Positions 22,125-33,288 of a DNA stretch of 64,000 nucleotides are shown here, piece by piece (the first letter of the stretch is position 1; each line of letters opens with the position of its first letter). The notes beneath the pieces were generated by a model that saw only the letters and a program-made list of their open reading frames with translations, made no database searches and was not told where the DNA came from. The DNA comes from Trichlorobacter thiogenes (GTDB taxonomy: Bacteria > Desulfobacterota > Desulfuromonadia > Geobacterales > Pseudopelobacteraceae). The stretch covers positions 1 through 64,000 of the forward strand of contig NZ_FUWR01000002.1 of NCBI RefSeq assembly GCF_900167465.1, written 5' to 3'. The translations under genes and the position numbers were made by a program.

Positions 22125-22949
22125 TTACTGCCCGATGATCTTTCTGCGTGGTGGCCGTTTGGTTGGCGTTGGTGGCTGAGGTGTCTTAGGTGCTTTTGCA
22201 GGGGCTGTCATGCGCTGTTCCCGCTGCTTGACTGGTGGCGGGGCATCCAGTGCCTGGGCCTCTTCCTTGCTCAGGAGACGGTATTCACCCGGTTGCAGGC
22301 CACCCAGGGTCAGGTTGCCGTAGCGTATCCGGCGCAGCCGTACCACAAACAGCCCCACGGCCGCGCACATCCGCCGCACCTGGCGGTTACGGCCTTCACG
22401 GATGGTGACAGACAGCCAGTCATTGCTCTGGTCGTTTTTCAGCAGGCGCACCGTGGTGGCTCCGGTGGGGCCATCCTCCAGTTCCACCCCATCAGCCAGT
22501 TTCTTGATCTGCTGTGGATCAATCTTGCCCCTGACCCGCACATGGTATTCCTTATCAACCTGATGGCGGGGATGCATCAGCCGGTTGGCCCAGGCACCGT
22601 CATTGGTCAGCAGTAGCAACCCTTCAGAGTTGTAGTCCAGCCGTCCCACCGGAAACAGGCGTTCGCCGATATCCTTGACCAGCTCGGTTACCAGCTGCCT
22701 TCCCTGGGGGTCCTTGAGTGAGGTGACATAGCCGGCAGGCTTGTGCAGCAGCACATAGTAGAACGTTTCAGCCGGTTTAACCGGCTGGCCATCCAGGGCT
22801 ATTAGATCTTTGGTCGGATCTGCCTTGCTGCCCAGTTCAGTCACCACCTGGCCGTTGACGGTGACCCGCCCGGCCAGGATCATCTCTTCCGAGGCGCGGC
22901 GGGAGGTGATCCCGGCAGCGGAAATAATTTTTTGCAGACGTTCCATCAT
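22125..22949 (-). CDS. Ribosomal large-subunit pseudouridine synthase, RluB/RsuA family
   Basis: The 274-residue protein has an S4 RNA-binding domain (about 3-60; RLQKIISAAGITSRR) and an RsuA/RluB catalytic domain (about 65-235) with the active-site segment VGRLDYNSEGLLLLTNDG, in which Asp is the catalytic residue. A basic Pro-rich tail ends the protein. It probably converts a uridine in 23S rRNA helix 89 (RluB role), but RluE/RluF-like targets cannot be excluded. The ATGATG start overlaps the stop of the small selenoprotein candidate upstream, so the two are coupled. Confidence 0.92.
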   Translation of the reverse strand: MMERLQKIISAAGITSRRASEEMILAGRVTVNGQVVTELGSKADPTKDLIALDGQPVKPAETFYYVLLHKPAGYVTSLKDPQGRQLVTELVKDIGERLFPVGRLDYNSEGLLLLTNDGAWANRLMHPRHQVDKEYHVRVRGKIDPQQIKKLADGVELEDGPTGATTVRLLKNDQSNDWLSVTIREGRNRQVRRMCAAVGLFVVRLRRIRYGNLTLGGLQPGEYRLLSKEEAQALDAPPPVKQREQRMTAPAKAPKTPQPPTPTKRPPRRKIIGQ

Positions 22950-23158
22950 GGCGTGTCCTCAGGGTGTTTCGTGTCGGTTTCGCCCGGTACCAGGGCTAGA
23001 AAGAATCCTGCTGCTGCTCCATACAAGGCCCCTGACCAGGGGTTGCTCATCATGGCTCAGCTTCCGCCTCCGGCGCAACGGGACATCCAGCCGAAGATTC
23101 CTCCGGCAAGGGCACCGCCACCGATCAGGATCAGAAATTTAAGTAGTTTTTTGTTCAT
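22946..23158 (-). CDS. Candidate selenoprotein: small DUF6132-like membrane protein with in-frame UGA
   Basis: From ATG 23158 one frame runs 70 codons to TGA 22946-22948 if the TGA at 23057-23059 (codon 34) is read as selenocysteine. The first part has a Gly-rich membrane helix (LKFLILIGGGALAGGIFG) and Cys28 in RCAGGGS; then Sec, then AMMSNPWSGALYGAAAGFF with a second helix. Small two-helix proteins I recall as DUF6132 carry C-xx-G-x-C-x-I-x-S-N-P. Here the UGA stands where the second Cys is expected, six residues before the Pro of SNP. A SECIS-like hairpin begins 11 bases after the UGA. A Cys-to-stop mutation (pseudogene) or two separate short ORFs are the alternatives. Confidence 0.72.
23024..23059 (-). 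promoter_or_regulatory. UGA codon and bacterial SECIS-like hairpin
   Basis: After the UGA (23057-23059) come 11 bases, then a hairpin. Its lower arm CAA (23043-23045) pairs with TTG (23024-23026), its upper arm CCCCT (23038-23042) pairs with AGGGG (23029-23033), the loop is GGTC (23034-23037), and a 2-base CC bulge lies on the 3' side. The 11-base spacing, G at the first loop positions and the GGUC loop itself match the Escherichia coli fdhF element bound by SelB. Confidence 0.7.
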
Positions 23159-23173
23159 GGATTCCCTAACAGA

Positions 23174-23199
23174 AACAGGGGCGCCGAGGCACCCCTGTT
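23174..23199 (-). terminator. Terminator downstream of accA
   Basis: On the minus strand AACAGGGG and CCCCTGTT pair, with further pairing of GCC/GGC inside, followed by TTTCTGTT. It lies 38 bases after the accA stop. The small gene just downstream would need its own promoter or read-through. Confidence 0.75.
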
Positions 23200-23236
23200 T
23201 GAATTGTTTTGCAGCGCCTTGAGTAGGAACACAAAC

Positions 23237-24187
23237 CTATTCAGCCATGCGGGTCATGGCGCGGAACTTCTGGTAGCGATCTTCAACCAGTTGTTCCGGT
23301 GTCATCTCTTTCAGTTCAGCCAGGTGGCGGCGGATGGCTGATCCCATGGCCTGGGTAGTGGCTTCGTGGTCACGGTGGGCGCCGCCAACCGGCTCGTGGA
23401 CGATTTCATCAATCACGCCCAGCTCAATGATATCCTGGGCTGCAGGCTTAAGTGCTTCAGCAGCCTGCTGGCCTTTGGTGCCGTCGGACCAGAGGATGGC
23501 AGCGCAACCTTCCGGCGAGATAACCGCATAGACGGAATGCTCCAGCATCAGGACCCGGTTGCCAACGGCAATGGCCAGAGCGCCACCGGAGCCACCTTCG
23601 CCGGTAATGCAGACAATGATCGGCACGGTCAGGCTGGCCATCTCGCGCAGGTTGCGGGCAATCGCCTCGGCCTGGCCACGCTCTTCTGCCCCAATGCCGG
23701 GATAGGCGCCAGGGGTGTCCACAAAGGTGATGATTGGCAGGTTGAACTGTTCAGCCATCTGGAACAGGCGTAGCGCCTTGCGGTAGCCTTCAGGGTTGGG
23801 CATGCCGAAGTTGCGGAACACTTTCTCTTTGGTGTCGCGCCCCTTTTGGTGCCCTACCACCATCACCGGTTGGCCGTCAAAACGGGCCAGACCACCCACG
23901 ATGGCGTGGTCATCGCCGAAGTTGCGATCACCGTGCAGCTCATTGAAATCAGTAAACAGATGCTGGATGTAATCAAGGGTAAAGGGGCGGTTGATATGAC
24001 GTGCCACCTGGGCCTTCTGCCAACGGGAGAGGTTGTTGAAGATCTCCTGACGCTTGGTCTCGACGCAGCTTTGCAGCGCATCGATCTCGGTAGACATCTC
24101 ACTGGCACCCAGTGAGCGCAGTTCTTCGATCTTCTTTTCCAGCTCGGCAATCGGTTTTTCAAACTCCATGTAGACAGTAGCTGCCAT
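23237..24187 (-). CDS. accA: Acetyl-CoA carboxylase carboxyltransferase subunit alpha
   Basis: The 316-residue alpha subunit of the carboxyltransferase moves CO2 from biotin to acetyl-CoA in the first step of fatty-acid synthesis, with AccD. The family's helical N-terminus ([16 protein letters not shown]) is present, as are the oxyanion-hole segments [18 protein letters not shown] and [16 protein letters not shown] of the crotonase-like fold. The length is typical. It follows dnaE by 158 bp, the gap holding copy B of the structured repeat, and ends at a terminator. Confidence 0.97.
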
Positions 24188-28120: not shown

Positions 28121-30709
28121 GTGAAACAGCTGTCTGCTTTTCTGTTTGTTAAGGTGCTACTTCTCATATTTATCAGCCCTGCACTCTCTTTTGAGTTCCC
28201 GGCAACTCCCCTTGGATCTGATATGATGGGCGTCGTAACCAGTTCTCAGTGGATCGATCGAGTTAATAATCTTACCGTTGGAACCCCAACCTATGACAGT
28301 ATCAACCAGGGCTTTCCGATTACCACCGATGTTAACGGGATGACGAATCATGAAGACTGGCCGCAATCGATTCGCACACCAAATGTAAGTCTTCAGGCAG
28401 GTCATGCCTATCAGTTTGTCCTACGCATGAAAACGGACGTTTTCCCACGCGGACAAAACATCATGGTTGTGGCAAGAGATGCTGCAGACTCGACGCAGGT
28501 CTACCAGTTTGCCTGGAACGCGTCAAAGGCCGGGGAGTGGGAGGATGTTTACGTTCCTGTATACCCTACAAAAAATGGCAGTTGGCGTCTGGATGTCTGG
28601 GTACATCCCACGATTAAGTATACTTCAACACCATCAACCATTTATATCTCTCCAGATGTTGATTGCTATGAGCTGTCCAGCGGTAACGAGATCGCTACCC
28701 TTCGCCCCATTGATGTTTCAACGGACAAGGATGCCTTTGTCAGCAGCACTGAGTGGATCGACGGCCTCGGCAATGTGTATGTCAAGGATGGCGAAAACTG
28801 GAAACACGTATTTCCCCGGATGATGTACCGGCGTTATCAATCCGAATTGGGTGGCGTGGCCTTTAAAACAATATTCCAACGTTACAAGGAGTATGGTTTT
28901 AACGGGGTTATGGATATCTGGGATGAATACAATGCCCAGGATGTCATGGATGCCGGTCTGGACTATATCTCCATCATGTCTAATTCCACTAACTCGGACG
29001 CCACTGTTACAAGTTTTGAAAGCATGAAAGGCTATATTGATCGTGTCTACAACTGGGCAACGACAAACAATCGCCATGGGAATCTTCTTTGGTACAACTA
29101 CGACAACGAAAATGCCCATGTAGCAGATTACGAGTACAAGCAATCCCTTCAGGCATACATTGACACCTATCATCTTGATCCACTGACCGGCAAACGCCGC
29201 CACCCTGTCTACGTACTGAATGGACAGAACGGTCTACCGCGCACCTATCACAATACCAGTCGCAACGTAATGGATCTTACCGGCTCCTATGTTGGTACTG
29301 CAGATGCTCTTGGTACCCCCAACGGCGTCCCGGCAGCTCCAAGGTTGCTGATTGAATCCATGACCCAGAACCAGCGGGCACCGGTTGCCGTCATCCAGTT
29401 GCAGACGTATTTCAAGGAAGAATTTATCCCTTCACTGTTCTACGGCATTATCATGGGTGGCCGTGCCTTAAGTGTATGGCGCGATGGTACGACTTTTAGC
29501 GGCTCGACAGCGGACTTCCGTGACAATGTCTGGGCCCTGGCATTCAAAAATGACGTCTCCCCCAAGATAGACCTAATGCTGCCAATCATCGAACAGCCGC
29601 ACTTTACCAACTGGAAGGCCTGGACCAACCAGTTTCCAAGTGTCCGTATCGGTACCCGTGAACTAAACGGTGTCGGCTACCTGCTTCTCTCCAGCTTTGC
29701 CGCCACCGACCTGTCGGTAACCGTAACCCTGCAGAACCGGCAGGCAACCAAGGCGGTTGATTACTTTACCGGTGAAGAGATAGGGACGGTCAGCAATGGC
29801 CAGTTTACCTTTACGATGGGGCACTACAATAATGGTTACCGGGTAATCCGACTGGTAGCCCCCACTGCAGCTGCCGCCTCACCGGCATCCAATGACTATG
29901 GCACGGTCAGCAATGGCCAGACATCAAGCAGCACCACCTTTACCCTCTCCAACCACTCCTCTGCCACCTCATCCCTGCAGATCAACTCAAGAACGATTAC
30001 CGGCACCAACGCGGATCAATTTATCTTGAGCAACGGCAGCTGTGGCGCACCTCCCTTTTTTCTCGATCCCGGTGGTTCATGTACGGTACAGGTCGCCTTC
30101 AAACCCACCACAACCGGGCTTAAGAATGCCACACTGGCAATAACCAGCACCGACGTTAACAGCCCTACGCTTTCCGTAGCCCTTTCCGGCACCGGTCGTG
30201 CTCAACTGAACCTCACCGTCAGCACCAGCAATGGCAGTGGTGGCACCGTAACCGGTGACACATCCGGTATCTCCTGCACCGGCGGGAATTGCACCTATGA
30301 CTTTACCCAGGCAGACACCGTCAACCTGACCGCCACCGCTAACATCGCCTCTGTATTTGGTGGCTGGTCAGGTGCCTGCACCAACGTTTCAGGTCTCTGT
30401 ACGGTGACAATGAGCAACACCAAAACCCTGGGCGCTGCATTTAACCTGGTACCCCGTGCCCGGATAGGCACCACCCCCTACGGTAGCCTTGCCAGCGCCT
30501 ATGCAGCCGTTGCATCAAATGGTCTGATTCAGGCCAAATCACTTATCTTCCCGGATAGCGGCCTAAGCTGTAATCGCAACATCAGCTTTAGCCTAAAAGG
30601 CGGGTATGCTGATACCTACTCCAGCCAGACCGGCTACAGTACGATTAGCGGTAAACTGACCCTTGCAGGAAGTGGGACCGTCACTGTTGACAGGATTGTG
30701 ATTCAGTGA
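28121..30709 (+). CDS. Large secreted modular protein 1: TIM-barrel hydrolase-like with HYDIN and InlB-type repeats
   Basis: The 862-residue protein has a signal peptide (cut near ALS-FEF) and an N-terminal beta-sandwich (about 25-195). A central region (about 230-500) reads like a TIM-barrel glycoside hydrolase: FPRMMYRR, YGFNGVMDIWDEY, then LLWYNYDNENAH with Glu330 as candidate acid/base, and FYGIIMGGRALSVWRDG. It is followed by a beta domain (505-580), a HYDIN/choice-of-anchor-D domain (585-693), an InlB-type repeat (695-777) and an 85-residue tail module ending DRIVIQ. It probably acts on an extracellular polysaccharide, but no glycoside hydrolase family can be named. GTG start; first of three paralogues. 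Confidence 0.85.
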   Translation: MKQLSAFLFVKVLLLIFISPALSFEFPATPLGSDMMGVVTSSQWIDRVNNLTVGTPTYDSINQGFPITTDVNGMTNHEDWPQSIRTPNVSLQAGHAYQFVLRMKTDVFPRGQNIMVVARDAADSTQVYQFAWNASKAGEWEDVYVPVYPTKNGSWRLDVWVHPTIKYTSTPSTIYISPDVDCYELSSGNEIATLRPIDVSTDKDAFVSSTEWIDGLGNVYVKDGENWKHVFPRMMYRRYQSELGGVAFKTIFQRYKEYGFNGVMDIWDEYNAQDVMDAGLDYISIMSNSTNSDATVTSFESMKGYIDRVYNWATTNNRHGNLLWYNYDNENAHVADYEYKQSLQAYIDTYHLDPLTGKRRHPVYVLNGQNGLPRTYHNTSRNVMDLTGSYVGTADALGTPNGVPAAPRLLIESMTQNQRAPVAVIQLQTYFKEEFIPSLFYGIIMGGRALSVWRDGTTFSGSTADFRDNVWALAFKNDVSPKIDLMLPIIEQPHFTNWKAWTNQFPSVRIGTRELNGVGYLLLSSFAATDLSVTVTLQNRQATKAVDYFTGEEIGTVSNGQFTFTMGHYNNGYRVIRLVAPTAAAASPASNDYGTVSNGQTSSSTTFTLSNHSSATSSLQINSRTITGTNADQFILSNGSCGAPPFFLDPGGSCTVQVAFKPTTTGLKNATLAITSTDVNSPTLSVALSGTGRAQLNLTVSTSNGSGGTVTGDTSGISCTGGNCTYDFTQADTVNLTATANIASVFGGWSGACTNVSGLCTVTMSNTKTLGAAFNLVPRARIGTTPYGSLASAYAAVASNGLIQAKSLIFPDSGLSCNRNISFSLKGGYADTYSSQTGYSTISGKLTLAGSGTVTVDRIVIQ
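29587..30709 (+). repeat. 1.1-kb repeated 3' segment, copy 1
   Basis: From the ATCGAACAGCCGCAC block to the stop codon this segment is nearly identical at DNA level to 32167-33288 and 34764-35885. It covers the end of the barrel, the accessory beta domain, the HYDIN and InlB-type repeats and the tail module. Upstream parts of the three genes differ much more. Confidence 0.9.
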
Positions 30710-30726
30710 AAACAGCAGGAGTGAAT

Positions 30727-33288
30727 GTGAACAGAATAGTGGGTTATCTCCTTTTTAGTGCTTTGCTACTGCTGTCGATCAGTTCTGCTATGGCGGCTGA
30801 ACTACCGGCTGCAACCCTTGGGCCGGATCTGATGGGGGTGGACCCGGTGGCAGATACCCGGTGGGCTGCTTTCAACAGTTCACTAAGCTATGATAGCTCT
30901 CAAAAGGGTTTCCCTTTTACCACGAATGTTAATACCGGTGAGACCAACCATGACACAATGACAAAACTGATCCAGTCTCCCTATGTCACCCTCACAGCCG
31001 GAAAACAGTACCAGTTTGTGCTGCGCATGAAGGCCGATACTTTTCCTCAAGGCCAAACCATCAACTTCGTAGCCGAAGCGGTTGGTGTCAACGGTGTTCC
31101 CTCTGAGGCGGAGCGGCATTCGACCTGGAATGTGTCGCGTGCAGAACAGTGGGAAGATGTGTATTTATATGTACGTCCACAATACAGTAGGAGATGGTAT
31201 GTCCAGGTCTGGGTGGAGCCAGGCACCCGCTTTGCTGCGACGCCCTCAACAATCTATCTTGCACCTGATTTTGATGTTTACGAGCTTCCTGGCGGCAATG
31301 AGGCGGTGACGATGCATGGCGTCAATACCGTTACCGACAAAGACAGTTTTGTCAGCAGCACACAGCTTGTTGATGGCCTGGGAAACATCTATACGAAAGA
31401 AGAAAATAGCACCACATGGAAACATGTCTTCCCGCGCATGATGTACCGGCGATGGACTACCGACCATATTACAGAATTTCAGCGTTACAAAGACTATGGA
31501 TTTAACGGTGTCATGAATATTGCTGATGACGATTCCGCTCAGGCTGCGCTGGATGTCGGCCTTAAGTACATATCCATCAATGTTCCCTGGATAGATGGTA
31601 CCTTCGATTACATTTGGCTTCGCATGGATGACGTCTATCAATGGGCGGAACGAACGGGACACCATGCCAATGTCCTCTGGTACAATGTTGATAACGAAAA
31701 TGCCTTTGTCGGCAACTACAGTTATCAGGAGCAGATACGAAACGGCATTGATACCTTTCATCTCGATCCGCAAACCGGCAAGCGGAGGCATCCCGTCTAC
31801 GTCAATAACGGCAATGTCGGCATTCCACGCACCTATCACAATGCCAGCCGCACTTTCATGGATTTCACTGGCAGCTATGTCGGTTCTGATGGTGCGTCGA
31901 AAGGACCTGATCTGAGGCCGGGGCCAACCCTGCTCACCCAGTTTGTGAGCCAGAACCAGCGTGCGCCAGTGTCGGTTATCCAACTTCAGATGGGAATCGG
32001 CAATACATTCATTCCTTCGTTGTTTTACGGCATAATCATGGGTGGACGGGCTATGAGCGTCTGGAGGGATGGGGGCTCTGAGCTCACAATCGATAATCCA
32101 CTTAATCCTTGGCCTGCCGCTTTCCGGGATGATGTCTCCCCCAAGATTGACCAGATGCTGCCGTTGATCGAACAGCCGCACTTCACTAACTGGAAGGCCT
32201 GGACCAACCAGTTTCCCTCTGTCCGTATCGGCACCCGAGAACTGAACGGTGTCGGCTACCTGCTTCTCTCCAGCTTTGCCGCTACCGACCTGCCGGTAAC
32301 CGTAACCCTGCAAAACAGACAGGCAACCAAGGCGGTTGATTACTTTACCGGCGCAGAGATAGCCACAGTAACAAACGGACAATTCACTTTTACGATGGGG
32401 CATTACAATGACGGCTACCGGGTAATCCGTCTGGTTGCCCCCACCGCAGCTGCCGCCTCACCGGCATCCAATGACTATGGCACGGTCACCAATGGCCAGA
32501 CATCCAGCAACGCCACCTTCACCCTCTCCAACCACTCCTCTGCAACCTCACCCCTGCAGATCAACTCAAGAACGATTAGCGGCACCAACGCGAACCAATT
32601 CATCTTGAGCAATGGCAGCTGTGGCACTACTCCGTTTACTCTTGCTCCCGGTGGTTCCTGCACCCTGCAGGTAAGCTTCAAACCCACCACAACCGGGCTT
32701 AAGAATGCCACACTGGCAATAACCAGCACCGACGTTAACAACCCTACGCTTTCCGTAGCCCTTTCCGGCACCGGTCGTGCTCAACTGAACCTCACCGTCA
32801 GCAACAGCAATGGCGGTGGTGGAACGGTAACCGGTGATTCCTCCGGTATCTCCTGCACCGGCGGGAATTGCACCTATGACTTTACCCAGGCTGCCACCGT
32901 CAACCTGACCGCCACTGCCAACATCGCCTCTGTTTTCAGCAACTGGTCCGGCGACTGCAGCGATAGCTCCACCACCTGCAGTCTTTCCATGAGCGACACC
33001 AAAACCCTGGGCGCTGTATTTAGCCTGGTACCCCGTGCCCGGATCGGCACCACCCCCTACGGTAGCCTTGCCAGCGCCTATGCCGCTGTTGCATCAAATG
33101 GTGTGATTCAGGCCAAGTCACTTCTCTTTCCAGATACCGGCCTTAGCTGTAATCGTAACATCAGTTTTAGCTTAAAAGGCGGGTATAGCGACACTTACTC
33201 CAGTCAGACCGGGTACAGTATTATTCCAGGAAACATGACGCTTACAGGAAGTGGAGCTGTAACTGTTGACAGGATTGTGATTCAGTGA
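30727..33288 (+). CDS. Large secreted modular protein 2, paralogue of the preceding gene
   Basis: The 853-residue paralogue has the same module order. I start it at GTG 30727, five bases after AGGAG (30717-30721), giving the signal peptide MNRIVGYLLFSALLLLSISS; a GTG at 30706 overlapping the previous stop is also possible. The conserved barrel motifs are MMYRR, YGFNGVMNIADD, VLWYNVDNENAF (DNEN again) and FYGIIMGGRAMSVWRDGG. The N-terminal half is closer to protein 3 than to protein 1. A family of co-expressed secreted enzymes with different fine specificity is the simplest reading. Confidence 0.84.
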   Translation: MNRIVGYLLFSALLLLSISSAMAAELPAATLGPDLMGVDPVADTRWAAFNSSLSYDSSQKGFPFTTNVNTGETNHDTMTKLIQSPYVTLTAGKQYQFVLRMKADTFPQGQTINFVAEAVGVNGVPSEAERHSTWNVSRAEQWEDVYLYVRPQYSRRWYVQVWVEPGTRFAATPSTIYLAPDFDVYELPGGNEAVTMHGVNTVTDKDSFVSSTQLVDGLGNIYTKEENSTTWKHVFPRMMYRRWTTDHITEFQRYKDYGFNGVMNIADDDSAQAALDVGLKYISINVPWIDGTFDYIWLRMDDVYQWAERTGHHANVLWYNVDNENAFVGNYSYQEQIRNGIDTFHLDPQTGKRRHPVYVNNGNVGIPRTYHNASRTFMDFTGSYVGSDGASKGPDLRPGPTLLTQFVSQNQRAPVSVIQLQMGIGNTFIPSLFYGIIMGGRAMSVWRDGGSELTIDNPLNPWPAAFRDDVSPKIDQMLPLIEQPHFTNWKAWTNQFPSVRIGTRELNGVGYLLLSSFAATDLPVTVTLQNRQATKAVDYFTGAEIATVTNGQFTFTMGHYNDGYRVIRLVAPTAAAASPASNDYGTVTNGQTSSNATFTLSNHSSATSPLQINSRTISGTNANQFILSNGSCGTTPFTLAPGGSCTLQVSFKPTTTGLKNATLAITSTDVNNPTLSVALSGTGRAQLNLTVSNSNGGGGTVTGDSSGISCTGGNCTYDFTQAATVNLTATANIASVFSNWSGDCSDSSTTCSLSMSDTKTLGAVFSLVPRARIGTTPYGSLASAYAAVASNGVIQAKSLLFPDTGLSCNRNISFSLKGGYSDTYSSQTGYSIIPGNMTLTGSGAVTVDRIVIQ
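32167..33288 (+). repeat. 1.1-kb repeated 3' segment, copy 2
   Basis: This is the second copy of the nearly identical gene ends. Small differences cluster in the InlB-type repeat, where this copy reads SNWSGDCSDSSTTCSLSMS instead of GGWSGACTNVSG, as expected for patchy gene conversion. Confidence 0.88.

Follow-up and report, generated by a model that had tools for sequence, protein, structure and literature searches.

In known bacterial selenoprotein families, a UGA codon stands in place of that of a redox cysteine (Cys), a bacterial SECIS element (bSECIS) is found, and Cys homologues occur in bacteria without SelA; likewise at the locus described here. A review of May 2026 lists 119 prokaryotic selenoprotein families or subfamilies, as the review itself counts them, with their domain identifiers in its Table 1 (PMC13188914). 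The bacterial SECIS model that the review sets out has a loop of 3–9 nt with a G in the first two places and a stem of 4 or more bp, lies 16–37 nt after the UGA, and has an MFE of at most −7.5 (PMC13188914). Among protein families, the nearest relative of the product discussed here is DUF6132 (PF19628), for which Pfam gives no function and a title that names no selenocysteine (Sec) form. The likeness consists of two short Gly-rich helices and a Cys pair (C-x4-C; in the present product, C-x5-U) with SNP after it, all in 50–70 residues; the difference is that the second Cys is, by prediction, Sec here.

By window we mean the whole stretch of DNA that was analysed, 64,000 nt in length. The features of the locus are as follows.

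22946–23158, minus strand: Sec-DUF6132 gene, 70 codons, with ATG at 23158–23156 and a UGA stop at 22948–22946 (from the translation, PF19628 and homologues).
23057–23059, minus strand: UGA codon 34, predicted to be read as selenocysteine (the homologue column holds UGA or Cys).
23075–23077, minus strand: Cys28 codon, likely the resolving cysteine, C-x5-U (relatives have a Cys upstream of Sec).
23028–23043, minus strand: predicted SECIS hairpin core CCCCU-GGUC-AGGGG, 5 pairs, with loop GGUC at 23034–23037, 19 nt after the UGA.
23163–23167, minus strand: Shine-Dalgarno-like AGGGA, 4 nt before the ATG (by eye).
22125–22949, minus strand: downstream S4/pseudouridine synthase gene (PF00849, PF01479), whose start overlaps the stop of the Sec gene.
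23237–24187, minus strand: upstream neighbour accA (PF03255), outside the system.

The original prediction described one 70-codon frame with a single TGA at codon 34, Cys28 before it and SNPWSGALYGAAAG after it, all of which is seen in the translation; it left the strand unstated, and the strand is minus. The product is MNKKLLKFLILIGGGALAGGIFGWMSRCAGGGS-U-AMMSNPWSGALYGAAAGFFLALVPGETDTKHPEDTP, followed by the UGA stop. Read on the plus strand, 22946–23158 contains a TAG and shows no likeness, and the two overlapping plus-strand ORFs that cover the Sec gene match nothing in Pfam. The Sec gene lies between accA and the S4/pseudouridine synthase gene, which we take to be RluB-like, with all three on the same strand. 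The proposed membership of DUF6132 was upheld by hmmscan: PF19628 spans the UGA, covering residues 2–57 with an E of 2.4e-8 and a score of 34 bits (cut-off 23.2), and, going by the alignment, we judge that the likeness on both sides of UGA34 is not chance.

Further observations concern the DNA itself. An inverted repeat, AAACAGGGG / CCCCTGTTT, occupies window positions 23173–23200 between accA and the Sec gene; the prediction rule finds no terminator there, and the repeat might serve the Sec gene as a leader element. Across the whole window, no known Rfam family reaches its gathering threshold, local matches being weak (E 0.58 and up). Elsewhere, the adjacent plus-strand ORFs at 28121–30709 and 30706–33288 encode very similar proteins of ~860 residues with long stretches in common and by their look are a tandem duplication.

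Is UGA34 kept in relatives, and in what company? Among 57 related genomes, the window's own included, 13 have a match at E up to 0.01, and in 11 of these both sides of one UGA align with the UGA in the same column; the two weakest (L020, L021) were judged unrelated on reading. The Pfam model run against 395 genomes of the phylum gives 13 matches in 11 genomes, each with a single TGA that falls in the Sec column, and a profile of Sec and Cys forms run against the same 395 gives 33 matches in 31 genomes, all 33 with one TGA (32 were read, the G204 sequence not being among them). Against 277 genomes of the class, this profile finds matches in 46. All 44 strong ones (E at or below 1e-10) have one TGA at the Sec column together with the downstream half, so the relatives do not present the real stop followed by decay that the original prediction had named as contrary evidence. 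The two weak class matches are G877, in which the UGA is kept and the upstream part, which includes an ambiguous base, is broken, and G995 (L149), a frame-broken copy from which the UGA codon is missing; the latter is gene decay, not a change to Cys. These genome searches scored part of the first-look candidates in each genome (15 to 23), and members may be missed. The Pfam and profile scans of the 395 phylum and 277 class genomes brought up no Cys form, and the TGA is thus not the lone mutation of a Cys codon that had been raised as a second objection; rather, Sec looks fixed here and not interchangeable.

A contrary reading takes UGA34 for a true stop, or for a leaky one read through as Trp or another residue, with the downstream likeness as a relic or a second small ORF. 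The broken copy L149, in one related genome and without the UGA, speaks for this reading; against it, the codon in the 44 strong class matches is UGA and never UAA, UAG or UGG. Two further lines of evidence against a stop, the Cys carriers and the hairpin, are taken up below.

Outside the phylum scans, a collection of named contigs, gathered with a pattern that favours PWSG forms, has UGA in 18 of 19 loci and Cys in the nineteenth (L049). The records are labelled Geobacter, Trichlorobacter, Geobacteraceae, Desulfuromonadaceae, Desulfuromusa, Pelovirga terrestris, Deltaproteobacteria, Chloroflexi, Dehalococcoidia and one Cloacimonadota bin. In this last bin, which has no SelA match, the gene (L043) differs very little from its counterpart in a Geobacter bin (L044), and the L043 contig is likely contamination. 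For the Chloroflexi locus L052, a search of 301 genomes of its phylum turned up seven matches, spread over six genomes. Two of these matches, in one genome and both with UGA, are real members; the other five (L087–L091) were judged on reading to be unrelated or too short, two of them exceeding the Pfam cut-off. The spacing is C-x5-U in the window protein and C-x4-U in most other members. Across 55 distinct sites of the window's kind, which we call type I, 52 have a Cys 5 or 6 residues upstream of Sec, and the Chloroflexi members L054 and L092 have no Cys at −5/−6.

The Cys forms come from the phylum of L049, in which a search of 44 genomes gave 21 matches in 19 genomes, none with a stop. In all 21, the Sec column holds Cys, followed by P-[LIF]-[TA], which bears out the proposal that the UGA sits at the second Cys of DUF6132; the spacing is C-x4-C in 20 and C-x5-C in L084. 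The original prediction had proposed looking in the genome for selA, selB, selC and selD, and all four are present: tRNA-Sec scores 76.2 bits, SelB was found, SelA has an E of 6.6e-153, and SelD, itself with one TGA, an E of 5.2e-105. The intact selD of this genome (L113) served as a control, its UGA being followed 17 nt on by a hairpin with loop GGA that fits the SECIS model. A second selD copy in the genome (L114/L115, G000:C37:64619-65453) lies in two pieces with the Sec UGA in the first, and is probably frame-broken or decaying.

SelA was searched for in the carriers in two batches, with matches in 28 of 31 and 27 of 51 genomes. Counting once the five pairs of genomes that went under two handles (four pairs with identical SelA coordinates, the fifth, G446/G848, with a common Sec site), leaving out G995, which has no UGA, and keeping G877, SelA is present in 50 of 56 UGA genomes versus none of 19 Cys genomes, for which completeness is not given and all of which are from one phylum. 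By Fisher's test, with related genomes treated as if they were independent, p for this contrast is 6e-13. Of the UGA genomes, six have no SelA match: the contaminated bin and five fragmented assemblies of one genus, with completeness of 81, 84, 100 (G848), 78 and 63%.

The RNA that follows the UGA was examined at the 55 type I sites, where codons +6 to +9 are mostly CCC TGG TCA GGG. Pro is CCC in 49 of 55 (background 31%), Ser is TCA in 48 of 51 (background 14%; four further sites have Thr), and Gly is GGG in 49 of 50 (background 18%; five further sites have Trp). Because the pattern used to collect the sites demanded CCN, TGG and [AT]C, the Pro, the Trp and the exclusion of AGY codons for Ser are built in, and the last codon bases were free. 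A pattern-free repeat that demanded the upstream Cys added one more real site, L161, with Met replacing Ser, and showed no Ser AGY; another hit of that repeat, L073, was a chance match. The Cys form L068, which also bears PWSG, uses CCA TGG AGC GGC. The codons encode a hairpin, CCCU-GGUC-AGGG, that is conserved at synonymous sites across two phyla. In 30 distinct sequences, three of its six pairs have changed on both sides (CG to AU, GC to AU and CG to UA), and 91.7% of cells are paired versus 33–67% in slid versions of the stem. In 500 shuffles, none reaches the observed covariation score, cells paired or cells with a double change; the other two of the five measures are unexceptional, with pairs with a double change equalled in 64/500 and pair types in 216/500.

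In a recoding test, for which the codon use of the window was applied to all genomes, the fold at the Sec sites grows weaker once the protein is recoded. The test gives a mean z of −2.41 for the 55 Sec sites (46 below −1.5; L034 at 0.04) versus −0.10 for 22 readings of Cys forms, which represent 21 distinct genes because L049 and L068 are the same gene counted twice. With the hairpin enforced, 52 of the 55 sites agree with the SECIS model as set out in the review (PMC13188914) on every point: all 55 agree in energy and in the G of the first two loop positions, and 52 have at least 4 pairs, the failures being L025 and L029 (mismatch) and L128 (3 pairs). At the window site, the loop is GGUC, 19 nt from the UGA, with 5 pairs and −15.0 kcal/mol when the hairpin is enforced. 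Folded alone with its flanks, this site has a z of −1.65, and 15 of 200 shuffles are as good; the fold is unremarkable by itself, and the SECIS case thus rests on comparison.

On comparative grounds, UGA34 is almost certainly decoded as Sec, making the gene product a predicted selenoprotein, because the UGA is kept, the same column holds Cys in carriers that have no SelA, the hairpin is conserved at synonymous sites, and the sel genes are there. The synonymous-site conservation and the Cys in SelA-less carriers also weigh against the stop or read-through reading, which we hold to be very improbable and which the UGA scans, the recoding test and the SelA survey in practice refute. If Sec is indeed inserted, SelB and tRNA-Sec would decode UGA34 under the direction of the hairpin 19 nt downstream.

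The family appears to have met the need for a SECIS element in a second way. A sister subfamily, type II, comprises 18 loci (L189–L206) in two families of the phylum and shares the position of Sec. In place of the first Cys, it has Ser, Gly, Asn, Lys or His, and a Cys stands four residues after Sec instead (U-x3-C-N-P). Two type II members, together with the locus L188, fall below the Pfam cut-off at 12.7–15.7 bits. The GGUC hairpin is absent from type II, in which CAACCC base-pairs to GGGUUG some 30 nt downstream. When a small inner helix is counted in, 91.7% of cells in this structure are paired versus 31–58% when it is slid. Four pairs have changed on both sides, and the outermost pair goes from C-G to U-A in four sequences (UGC/UUG to UGU/UUA). 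No shuffle in 500 reaches the covariation score, for a structure that was derived from the same sequences, and two measures are unexceptional (pairs with a double change 245/500, pair types 319/500). The Leu at the hairpin site is encoded by TTR in 18 of 18 versus 22.8% in nearby ORFs. Given this separate hairpin and the moved Cys, DUF6132 appears to contain two kinds of SECIS and to place the partner Cys in either of two positions. The geometry of the resolving Cys is thus not fixed, since L054 and L092 have none at −5/−6 and type II moves it. The Cys forms L081 and L084 have both Cys, and we infer that they are possible intermediates.

What would such a small protein look like in the membrane? 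Predicted helices run from residue 3 to 29 and from 40 to 56 in a low-confidence model of the window protein (mean pLDDT 63.5), the first of them ending near Cys28 and ahead of Sec34. In the membrane part, the AlphaFold models are weak (mean pLDDT 63.5 and 76.1). A scan of PDB sequences brought up no solved relative at E up to 1. On average, the N-flank is positive, with 2.2 Lys/Arg versus 0.05 Asp/Glu (starts chosen by rule), the loop is near-neutral with 0.4 Lys/Arg, and the C-tail is not positive, with 1.5 Lys/Arg versus 1.8 Asp/Glu. The positive N-flank and the two helices suggest that both ends are cytoplasmic and the Sec loop periplasmic. By prediction, the 70-residue product forms a hairpin in the membrane, its two Gly-rich helices joined by a short loop with Cys28 and Sec34. 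A role resembling that of DsbB or VKOR, with the Sec/Cys pair of this same selenoprotein exchanging electrons with the quinone pool at the periplasmic edge, would suit the predicted N-in topology, which puts the loop at the outer face, and the position of the pair between two helices in the low-confidence model. We find this role improbable: there are two helices only, the thioredoxin fusions described below suggest a cytoplasmic partner, and neither the Pfam scan nor the PDB sequence scan named DsbB or VKOR.

Clues to function come mostly from the Cys forms. A thioredoxin domain with CPPC or CGPC is fused in frame in 5 of the 21 (L066, L067, L068, L069 and L080), and Pfam names both domains in L068, the one fusion run through it; these fusions were seen in Cys forms only. 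A separate thioredoxin gene lies directly upstream of two of the fused forms, in L106 and L112. Because of the fusions, we favour, with slightly better than even confidence, a role as a small membrane thiol/selenol-disulfide switch that is served by thioredoxin. In such a switch, the selenolate would attack a disulfide, a persulfide or a similar oxidised partner at the membrane face, Cys28 would resolve the adduct to give an intramolecular selenenylsulfide, and a thioredoxin-type protein would re-reduce the Cys28-Sec34 selenenylsulfide. One could go further and picture a minimal transmembrane electron relay, in which oligomerising Gly-zipper helices and the Cys/Sec switch would carry electrons from cytoplasmic thioredoxin to the far side, Sec having been fixed early in one phylum, where two forms of SECIS and two positions of the partner Cys would support it. 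We think this fuller picture distinctly unlikely, and outward electron passage by Sec-DUF6132 is a guess.

Gene neighbourhoods hint at redox associations, the examples having been chosen by eye from ORF lists. Near Sec forms of other groups, within about 0.4 kb, are SelR/MsrB (L053), AhpC/TSA (L054) and a rhodanese/metallo-beta-lactamase-fold protein (L152), and a glutaredoxin lies about 1 kb from the L103 site. Rhodanese and ArsR-type regulator genes are found 4 to 5 kb from the L104 site, and in L108 an ArsR-type gene adjoins the Cys form. At many other Sec loci, the adjoining genes show no redox theme, for example a Na/Ca exchanger or SfsA. In the genus group, the S4/pseudouridine synthase neighbour is clustered in nine loci, and a DUF454-cluster gene lies upstream in six (one Pfam-checked) and is absent at the window locus. 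With such housekeeping neighbours in the window and the genus, context there gives no function.

The rhodanese and ArsR-type genes at L152, L104 and L108 are what one would look to for a different role of the same selenoprotein, namely the handling of sulfur, selenium or metal(loid)s, with Sec/Cys as the carrier of a persulfide, a selenide or a soft metal onto the membrane or across it. The 2026 review is in line with this idea, in that it links several Sec transporters with metals and counts YeeE/YedE among the selenoproteins (PMC13188914). Comparison with the YeeE/YedE profile gave a probability of 1%, the thioredoxin fusions point to electron transfer instead, and no metal-resistance gene is present among the window neighbours searched. 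We consider a sulfur or metal role unlikely, though plausible, and retain the thioredoxin-served switch as the preferred reading.

These results add to the predicted selenoprotein families one that standard annotation would miss, since its ORF has about 55–70 codons and is split by a UGA. They also provide a chemical clue for DUF6132, whose conserved second Cys appears to be redox-active enough to merit Sec and whose partner is probably thioredoxin. Additionally, we are left with a family of small proteins in which the codons for Pro-Trp-Ser-Gly, just downstream of Sec, are shaped by the RNA element they have to form, and with a sister subfamily in which a different hairpin seems to serve that need.

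Set against known systems, the Sec forms depart from PF19628 at large in that Trp-Ser after the Pro is near-fixed, because it encodes the SECIS loop. Sec-type YeeE/YedE (PF04143), with the Sec motif GUxSG (PMC13188914), is likewise a membrane protein with Sec and is much larger than Sec-DUF6132; kinship was rejected, hhalign giving 1% against a YeeE/YedE alignment built here. Split YeeE/YedE half-genes with an in-frame TGA were seen in five genomes of the genus (G003, G004, G005, G006 and G007). With thioredoxin-fold reductases (Trx, DsbD/TsoB), the common ground is a thiol/selenol relay, and the domain fused to one Cys form of DUF6132 exceeds the NCBIfam cut-off for thioredoxin; the difference is that DUF6132 is the membrane part and is itself no thioredoxin domain. 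DUF6132 and PF19628 are absent from the whole of Table 1 of the review, with its 119 families (PMC13188914). NCBIfam release 20.0 has no match to the window protein at E up to 10, and five further members, two of type I and three of type II, gave none near a cut-off at E up to 1. The deep-Sep families DG, DW and DF carry NCBIfam numbers in the review's table (PMC13188914) and appear distinct from the present family in this NCBIfam model search, in a release that may not include those models. In open-licence full text, DUF6132 gave one match, which by its listing is on plant sugar transporters, and PF19628 and small membrane selenoproteins gave none. Given its absence from Table 1, NCBIfam and the open-licence full text, we file the gene product as a Sec variant of the known DUF6132 family and, by prediction, as a new family of selenoproteins.
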